Assembly (NCBI GenBank): GCA_025359125.1
Contig: JANYHI010000055.1
Span: 1-64,000, forward strand
Length of the DNA stretch: 64,000 bases
Source: Cytophagales bacterium
Lineage (GTDB): Bacteria > Bacteroidota > Bacteroidia > Cytophagales > Cyclobacteriaceae
Direction of reading: 5' to 3'
In this document: piece after piece, positions 28,020-28,930 of the stretch
How the letters are laid out: each line of letters starts with the position of its first letter
Numbering within the stretch: the first letter of the stretch is position 1
Program-made: the position numbers and the translations under genes
Notes under the pieces: generated by a model
What the model was told of the DNA's origin: nothing
Databases searched by the model: none
Seen by the model: the letters and a program-made list of their open reading frames with translations, nothing else

Positions 28020-28040
28020 GTTTTTAATAGTAAATTATTT

Positions 28041-28070
28041 TTGGATAAATCAAACGCAGGGTTATCTTTA
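28041..28070 (+). promoter_or_regulatory. Bacteroidota-type promoter candidate (TTG-N19-TATCTTTA)
   Basis: TTG at 28041-28043, 19-nt spacer, TATCTTTA at 28063-28070 (consensus TAnnTTTG, one mismatch), just upstream of the tRNA-like array. Confidence 0.6.
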
Positions 28071-28087: not shown

Positions 28088-28176
28088 GGTCTGGTAGTTC
28101 AGCAGGTTAGAATGTCCCGATTGGGGCGAGAAGGTCTCGGGAACTATTATGAATATTGTGAAAGTTAAAAAGTATT
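28088..28176 (+). pseudogene. tRNA-Asp-derived unit 1 (89 nt; 5' part of tRNA-Asp, altered anticodon arm, no 3' end)
   Basis: GGTCTGGTAGTTCAGCAGGTTAGAATG matches the tRNA-Asp acceptor 5' strand and D arm, then TCCCGATTGGGGCGAGAAGGTCTCGGGA and an A/T-rich tail. Confidence 0.85.
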
Positions 28177-28266
28177 GGTCTGGTAGTTCAGCTGGTTAGA
28201 ATGTCCCGCTTGGGGCGGGAAGGTCGCGGGGAACTATTAGGAATATAGTGAAAGTTAAAAAGTATT
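28177..28266 (+). pseudogene. tRNA-Asp-derived unit 2 (90 nt)
   Basis: GGTCTGGTAGTTCAGCTGGTTAGAATG identical to tRNA-Asp, then TCCCGCTTGGGGCGGGA, AGGTCGCGGG, diverging where the T-loop should start. Confidence 0.9.
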
Positions 28267-28357
28267 GGTCTGGTAGTTCAGCTGGTTAGAATGTCCCGCT
28301 TGGGGCGGGAAGGTCGGGGTGGAACTATTAGGAATATAGTGAAAGTTAAAAAGTATT
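28267..28357 (+). pseudogene. tRNA-Asp-derived unit 3 (91 nt)
   Basis: Near-identical to unit 2, differing at ggtcggggtggaac versus ggtcgcggggaac. Confidence 0.9.
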
Positions 28358-28431
28358 GGTCTGGTAGTTCAGCTGGTTAGAATGCCTGCCTGTCACGCAG
28401 GAGGTCGCGGGTTCGAGTCCCGTCCAGACCG
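28358..28431 (+). tRNA. tRNA-Asp (anticodon GTC)
   Basis: Complete cloverleaf: GGTCTGG/CCAGACC acceptor, D arm, CCTGC-CTGTCAC-GCAGG anticodon arm, GCGGG-TTCGAGT-CCCGT T arm, G discriminator; CCA not encoded. Confidence 0.97.
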
Positions 28432-28436
28432 CTTAA

Positions 28437-28472
28437 AAGCCTTATTTTTAATTAAATAAGGCTTTTTTTATT
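28437..28472 (+). terminator. Rho-independent terminator downstream of tRNA-Asp
   Basis: AAGCCTTATTT-ttaatta-AAATAAGGCTT hairpin followed by T-run. Confidence 0.85.
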
Positions 28473-28509
28473 GAATTGGTCAAGGTTTGGGCGGTCTTAT
28501 TTGGTTTTA

Positions 28510-28746
28510 ATGAGTCGACATTTGAAAAACAATTTTCAACTAACCCAAATCAAAAAACTGATTACCTACAAAGAGAATGAGAGTACACTGTTTACTCGCT
28601 ACAAAGCGCGGACTCCGCAATAAGTAAAAGATAGAATTATCTGGCACCTCAAGGAAGCTTCATATGGCAATAGTCAAAATGTACTTGATCAGTTGGCCAA
28701 GGTTAATGCGGATTTCATGGAAGCTGAAACGTTGGAAAATTCTTGA
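28510..28746 (+). pseudogene. Possible small pseudogene with one in-frame TAA
   Basis: Same frame reads MSRHLKNNFQLTQIKKLITYKENESTLFTRYKARTPQ*VKDRIIWHLKEASYGNSQNVLDQLAKVNADFMEAETLENS*; TAA at 28621-28623. Confidence 0.35.
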
Positions 28747-28930
28747 ATAGTACTGTAAAATCAAAAAAATTTTTTGCTTTTGGACTTTTTGACACCACAT
28801 TAATTAGCAGCGATAATATTTGGGTTATCTTCTCCAGTGATTCGGTCATCCACCTGCGGTCGCGTGCAGAGGTAGAAAAAAATGTATTTGTTGCAAAAAG
28901 ATAAAAGAGAAGTTATTTTTTAATAAAATT

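Follow-up and report, generated by a model that had tools for sequence, protein, structure and literature searches.

tRNA-derived hairpin repeats beside bacterial tRNA genes as probable parts of tRNA-resident GIY-YIG nuclease cassettes

We analysed a 64,000-nucleotide stretch of a Cytophagales genome (hereafter the window) in which a tandem array of half-tRNA-Asp units precedes one intact tRNA-Asp gene. We compared 231 distinct units, which involve about 15 tRNA isotypes and occur in Bacteroidota as well as in a few further phyla. The comparison suggests that such units are probably tRNA-derived palindromic repeats of widespread tRNA-resident GIY-YIG nuclease cassettes, amplified by cutting and recombination, with the window's Asp array a nuclease-less member of the family. 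A complete cassette consists of the native promoter, n 5'-half hairpin-armed tRNA copies, the intact tRNA and its terminator, followed by m blocks that each comprise a GIY-YIG gene, a 3'-half hairpin-armed copy and a terminator. A first-pass annotation of the window had read the array either as the relic of former tandem tRNA-Asp copies or as a tRNA-like RNA that shares a transcript with tRNA-Asp. That interpretation is borne out in part, yet both readings miss the main pattern: units of this kind lie on many isotypes and in several phyla, they form a split pair of 5' and 3' halves around the intact tRNA, and they are linked to GIY-YIG genes.

The tRNA-Asp array, its genome and its relatives

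The window locus holds three half-tRNA-Asp units with starts at 28088, 28177 and 28267 and lengths of 89, 90 and 91 nt, as the first-pass annotation had described them from the sequence. Tandem Repeats Finder reported this as the single array of the whole window (28088-28384, period 90, 3.3 copies, 95% match). ARAGORN, a check of the type the annotation had suggested, called only the intact tRNA-Asp(GTC) in the region and none of the units, and the Rfam tRNA model (RF00005) gave the intact gene 70 bits and the half units no score. With neither a 3' acceptor strand nor an anticodon loop, the units fall outside the cloverleaf definition of a tRNA gene. The features of the locus are:

28040-28070, + strand: promoter-like site of the Bacteroidota type, TTTG-N19-TATCTTTA, upstream of unit 1, read from the sequence
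28088-28176, + strand: half-tRNA-Asp unit 1, diverged, hairpin broken (sequence, repeat finding; fold z -0.8, not significantly stable)
28115-28131, + strand: anticodon-arm replacement of unit 1, TCCCGATTGGGGCGAGA (sequence)
28177-28266, + strand: half-tRNA-Asp unit 2 (sequence, repeat finding; fold z -3.0)
28179-28189, + strand: predicted 5' strand of the unit 2 basal stem (tRNA nucleotides 3-13), pairing with 28231-28241
28204-28220, + strand: unit 2 hairpin TCCCGCTTGGGGCGGGA in the anticodon-arm position (sequence)
28231-28241, + strand: predicted 3' strand of the unit 2 basal stem, GAACTATTAGG (RNA fold)
28267-28357, + strand: half-tRNA-Asp unit 3 (sequence, repeat finding; fold z -4.2)
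28294-28310, + strand: unit 3 hairpin TCCCGCTTGGGGCGGGA in the anticodon-arm position (sequence)
28358-28432, + strand: intact tRNA-Asp(GTC) (ARAGORN; Rfam RF00005)
28435-28466, + strand: intrinsic terminator of the tRNA-Asp transcript (13-bp stem and T run)

Each unit runs from tRNA-Asp nucleotides 1-27 through a 17-nt arm to AGGTC, and the 3' half of the tRNA is missing. The sequence confirms the replaced anticodon arm: the new stem pairs perfectly in units 2 and 3, and unit 1 has a variant in which it is broken. One point of the annotation needs correcting, in that the tail is related to the unit: GAACTATTAGG is able to pair with the 5' end of its own unit, TCTGGTAGTTC, over 11 bp with three G-U pairs in the predicted RNA fold. 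Because of this pairing, units 2 and 3 are long hairpins in the predicted fold, and unit 1 is not. The units abut one another with no island in between. The Bacteroidota promoter consensus is TTTG/TAnnTTTG; given the promoter-like site before unit 1 and the terminator after the tRNA, the units are probably transcribed together with tRNA-Asp, and we found no terminator between units and tRNA in the window locus. The description of the units as tRNA-derived, homogenised and placed behind the tRNA's own promoter holds up. Among the neighbouring ORFs of the window there is neither a GIY-YIG gene nor a 3'-half tRNA copy near the array. The interval from tRNA-Asp to a flippase-like gene (28470-28930) contains short frames only; an accA-like gene that follows tRNA-Asp in genomes G029, G011 and G406 is absent at the window locus.

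Searching the same genome with the array revealed a second one on contig C52, where three 5'-half tRNA-Arg(TCT) units, carrying the TCCCGC/GCGGGA stem of the Asp array, precede an intact tRNA-Arg. The sole small stand-alone GIY-YIG gene of the genome adjoins this Arg(TCT) array and runs off the contig end. Units also persist next to tRNA-Asp in the relatives G029, G016, G011 and G007, as the annotation had proposed to look for, and an array precedes tRNA-Arg in G051, a member of another family of the order. Absence from close relatives, which would have spoken for a local event, applies in part, with tRNA-Asp arrays in only about 5 of 37 genus-mates; recurrence at other loci and in other genomes rules out a one-off local duplication. 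Nor did a GIY-YIG gene turn up next to the tRNA-Asp arrays in G029, G016 and G011; the nuclease link of the Asp array therefore runs through family resemblance.

The leader block before unit 1 also precedes intact tRNA-Asp in three array-less genus-mates (loci L009, L010 and L015). L010 and L015 present a near-empty site, in which the leader runs straight into a single tRNA-Asp and then a terminator. At the G029 locus (L027), the leader, identical to that of L015 at 88 of 95 positions, runs into unit 1, and the terminator after the intact tRNA-Asp is the one found in L010 and L015. From the common leader and terminator, the array reads as a clean addition at the 5' half of tRNA-Asp. Two further loci differ in detail. 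In the units before tRNA-Asp in G007 (L017), a second palindrome, TCCCGATTTAATCGGGA, replaces the tRNA 5' end in addition to the replaced anticodon arm. At L080, three tandem genes called as tRNA-Gly(GCC) (1768-2044) have the body of tRNA-Asp and differ from it in a single anticodon base; they belong to a tRNA-Asp array that also holds hairpin units, and mischarging or a shift of anticodon is possible there.

Polarity, hairpins and spread of the units

Many loci share one anatomy, in which 5'-half units, an intact tRNA and a terminator are followed by a small GIY-YIG gene, a 3'-half hairpin-armed tRNA copy and another terminator. Across the 231 units, the 5' acceptor strand is present in 106 of 131 upstream copies versus 7 of 100 downstream (Fisher 5e-32), and the 3' end is kept in 49 of 100 downstream copies versus 9 of 131 upstream (Fisher 1e-13). 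Units occupy both sides of the tRNA at about 36 loci, usually with closely similar hairpins. At L266 (tRNA-Arg CCT) and at L303 and L326 (tRNA-Leu CAA), some tRNA copies have a palindrome such as CCTGCCTGCCGGCAGGCAGG in the T loop instead of the anticodon arm.

We assessed the hairpin on loci fetched without the TCCCG motif, either because they resemble the array or through GIY-YIG. A stem of at least 6 bp replaces the anticodon arm in 57 of 62 altered copies (92%), versus 3% of shuffled arms, which bears out the earlier remark that the hairpin is unlike random decay. TCCCG opens 46 of these 57 hairpins. Most stems are of the form TCCCGN/NCGGGA, others are TTCCGAT/ATCGGAA, CTCCGAC/GTCGGAG, TGGCGC/GCGCCA or TCCTGAC/GTCAGGA, and the inner stem pairs 6-8 vary by compensation. 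Over 61 loci, pairing between the 5' end and the tail came to 9.6 of 17 bases, versus 6.4 with shuffled tails (Wilcoxon p 6e-7). Taking conserved sequence and conserved pairing together, we infer that something recognises a hairpin; the conserved arms and complementary tails could instead reflect an RNA function. A strand test comparing RNA with one DNA strand, by G-T versus A-C at stem positions 2-7, gave 9 versus 6, both small counts.

Several accounts of the hairpin were rejected. The UGG of CUUGGGG does not make the new arm a tRNA-Pro-like anticodon arm, as the stem persists but loops are free, with GTG, TAGG, CTCAA and TTAAG among the variants. Intragenomic gene conversion as the route of spread is at odds with loops and a sixth stem pair that differ between arrays of one genome, and a functional RNA specific to tRNA-Asp is at odds with the same units on the other isotypes.

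A pattern combining the D arm, TCCCG...CGGGA and AGGTC matched 31 of 391 genomes of the order; the reversed pattern, used as control, matched none. A scan of GTDB species added matches in other Bacteroidota orders and in Uhrbacteria, Neomarinimicrobiota, Kiritimatiellae and Ignavibacteria MAGs, with the full anatomy in one Uhrbacteria and one Neomarinimicrobiota MAG, a taxonomic picture biased by the collection of many loci through the TCCCG motif. About half of the scan matches are lone, with no tRNA near, many of them in unrelated genomes, and none of these lone matches has a GIY-YIG gene within 2 kb. The clearest case outside Bacteroidota, L186, has an identical hairpin, TCCCGACGTGACGTCGGGA, flanking a tRNA-Arg(GCG) and an 88-aa GIY-YIG frame.

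Genome-wide, TCCCG...CGGGA palindromes reach about 5-15 times the reversed-pattern control in G324, G051, G406 and G199; counts are 146 versus 17 in G324 and 40 versus 63 in Dyadobacter. A 19-bp form of the palindrome in G324, TCCCGATCTTTCATCGGGA, lies within a longer dispersed repeat. An origin from dispersed repeats in general would be an incomplete explanation, the excess being present in some genomes and not in Dyadobacter.

GIY-YIG genes linked to tRNA genes

The linked proteins are bare GIY-YIG domains (PF01541, E 1e-9 to 1e-16), many of about 85-135 aa, and the catalytic Y, Y, R, H and E are conserved in 60 aligned sequences. The family thus has the GIY-YIG catalytic domain, of which the window genome holds only the contig-truncated copy on C52. 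The nearest solved chain to the cassette proteins is 1zg2, a UPF0213 protein, and no NCBIfam model scored above its cut-off for them.

In a set found in part through tRNA units, 60 GIY-YIG genes have an upstream tRNA that shares their strand, and 0 have one on the opposite strand. When the window's genus was sampled by GIY-YIG alone, 20 of 30 small GIY-YIG loci lay within 1.5 kb of a tRNA, for which we estimate a chance rate of ~3% (some 40 tRNA genes per 4 Mb); these genus loci together with six further GIY-YIG loci gave 23 same-strand and 0 opposite-strand cases. In a phylum-wide sample, 7 of 29 GIY-YIG loci were tRNA-linked. The protein tree tracks tRNA isotype, requiring 19 changes versus 40.2 after shuffling in a tree of short proteins with many forks unresolved, and all 14 Asp-linked proteins fall on a single branch with support 98. 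By strand and isotype clustering, the family is linked to tRNA genes as a homing cassette is to its target, which would here be the tRNA; the Asp locus of the window is without a GIY-YIG gene.

GIY-YIG genes away from tRNAs have repeats of their own. Shared repeats of at least 15 nt lie across the gene in 19 of 29 such loci, versus 1 of 87 control windows, and Rfam gave no match at these loci. Because such repeats surround the tRNA-less genes, it seems that these nucleases generally come with cognate repeats, of which tRNA halves are a special case; at tRNA-linked genes, the hairpin-armed tRNA copies occupy the place of the cognate repeats that surround an Ssn-type nuclease gene. Dispersed repeats, TTGTCATCCCGAGCGCAGTCGAGGGACAA and GTCATGCAGAGCCTGTCGAAGCAT among them, border small tRNA-less GIY-YIG genes at L274, L216, L219, L297 and other loci, either on one side or on both.

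Proposed cycle, rival explanations and known systems

We propose a cycle modelled on phage SegB amplification, in which hairpin-armed tRNA halves would serve as the repeats. The nuclease would recognise, and cut at, a sequence or a hairpin that lies within its cognate tRNA gene or stems from it; recombination between tRNA-derived repeats would then mend the breaks and add cassettes or half units, and the intact tRNA would always be retained through rounds of cutting and recombination. Half units would later be reshaped into long hairpins. The window's Asp array would be a nuclease-less member, either non-autonomous or a remnant, possibly multiplied in trans by the small GIY-YIG protein of the Arg(TCT) locus or by a nuclease that the genome no longer has, and its units would be transcribed with tRNA-Asp as passengers.

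The strongest rival is a functional or protective RNA: co-transcribed hairpins could act as small RNAs or decoys, or could insulate the precursor against mispairing of 5' halves with the 3' half of the tRNA. The promoter-like site before unit 1, the uninterrupted path from units to tRNA, the folding of units 2 and 3 beyond that of shuffles, the end-to-tail pairing over 61 loci and the compensatory variation of inner stem pairs all agree with an RNA role. We nevertheless regard it as unlikely: presence in the genus is patchy, TCCCG/CGGGA is conserved across isotypes and phyla beyond structural need, the same hairpin recurs in downstream copies behind the nuclease gene, and unit 1 of the window is decaying. 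A neutral origin, in which surplus tRNA copies arose by tandem duplication, decayed and were homogenised by slippage with no nuclease link, draws on the tandem intact tRNA-Asp copies present in relatives, the degenerate unit 1, tails that differ from lineage to lineage and the minority of genus-mates with an array. It would have to produce stems of at least 6 bp in nearly all altered copies, opposite polarity upstream and downstream, and a strand-fixed, isotype-specific GIY-YIG association; for the family as a whole it is hard to hold, and we give it little credence. Integrative elements usually reveal themselves by partial tRNA copies at a tRNA gene (PMC9897764), yet attachment-site remnants left by integrases of prophages or islands entering tRNA genes are a very improbable source of ~90-bp units with no island between copies, an anticodon arm replaced and not merely cut, and a GIY-YIG gene as recurrent partner. 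An assembly artefact, conceivable in a short-read draft of 87 contigs, has next to no probability, since the same kind of unit appears in independent assemblies of many species, including the single-contig genome G385, and collapse of the window array is unlikely because its units differ from one another and its flanks are unique.

Extending the GIY-YIG cassette reading, we tentatively suggest a new class of minimal mobile elements colonising tRNA genes in Bacteroidota and at least a few other phyla, in which each lineage may combine an isotype-dedicated GIY-YIG nuclease with an intact target tRNA bracketed by hairpin-armed halves, and may spawn nuclease-less arrays. If this is true, many bacterial genomes hold a small selfish system for which tRNA genes supply the target as well as the repeats. 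The target would be kept alive since the element carries a working tRNA copy, and recombination that removed the element would leave behind a non-functional tRNA. Such elements would account for puzzling partial tRNAs and for small GIY-YIG genes beside tRNA genes, would extend SegB-type tRNA amplification from phages to chromosomes, and would supply an isotype-by-isotype series of nucleases for a direct test of how tRNA copy number and loci evolve. A literature search on Ssn/NTS, rtT and bacterial tRNA-linked GIY-YIG genes, which covered few subscription papers, returned no description of such elements.

Among known systems, the GIY-YIG enzyme SegB of phage T6 drives tandem amplification of tRNA-Tyr and segB, by a mechanism that includes recombination between the 5' part of the tRNA and the 3' end of the nuclease gene (PMC13096335). 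Like SegB of T4/T6 and free-standing GIY-YIG homing endonucleases, the cassettes place a small GIY-YIG gene beside a tRNA in tandem tRNA and nuclease copies (PMC13096335). Unlike SegB, they are chromosomal and occur over bacterial phyla, encode bare GIY-YIG domains known from sequence alone, are flanked by tRNA halves with the anticodon arm replaced, and have nuclease-less arrays as counterparts. Ssn is a family of GIY-YIG single-strand nucleases with NTS repeats in Neisseria. The cassettes resemble it in their small GIY-YIG proteins, in cognate short palindromic repeats around the gene and in a TCCC...GGGA core, which may be set beside the dRS3 repeats of Neisseria, ATTCCC(N8)GGGAAT (PMC3898611). 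They differ in that their repeats are rebuilt tRNA copies, each tied to one tRNA gene, and in that single-strand cleavage by their nucleases is putative.

REP sequences pair with RAYT transposases of the tyrosine (HUH) type. With REP/RAYT the cassettes share short hairpin repeats, a nuclease-like partner gene and gene-less repeats elsewhere in the same genome; their partner is instead a GIY-YIG protein, outside the HUH/Y1 transposases, and their repeats are tRNA-derived. The rtT repeats of E. coli tyrT hold 3' tRNA pieces in 178-bp units downstream of the gene, and like them the arrays are tandem units with part of the adjacent tRNA gene, except that here 5' halves lie upstream and carry a replaced anticodon arm. 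Elements that integrate into tRNA genes leave partial tRNA copies beside the intact tRNA (PMC9897764), as seen here, but not with a hairpin for the anticodon arm, with both 5' and 3' halves left and with no island between copies. Set against these systems, the tRNA-half elements are best placed among GIY-YIG nucleases that have cognate repeats, as a form of their own.
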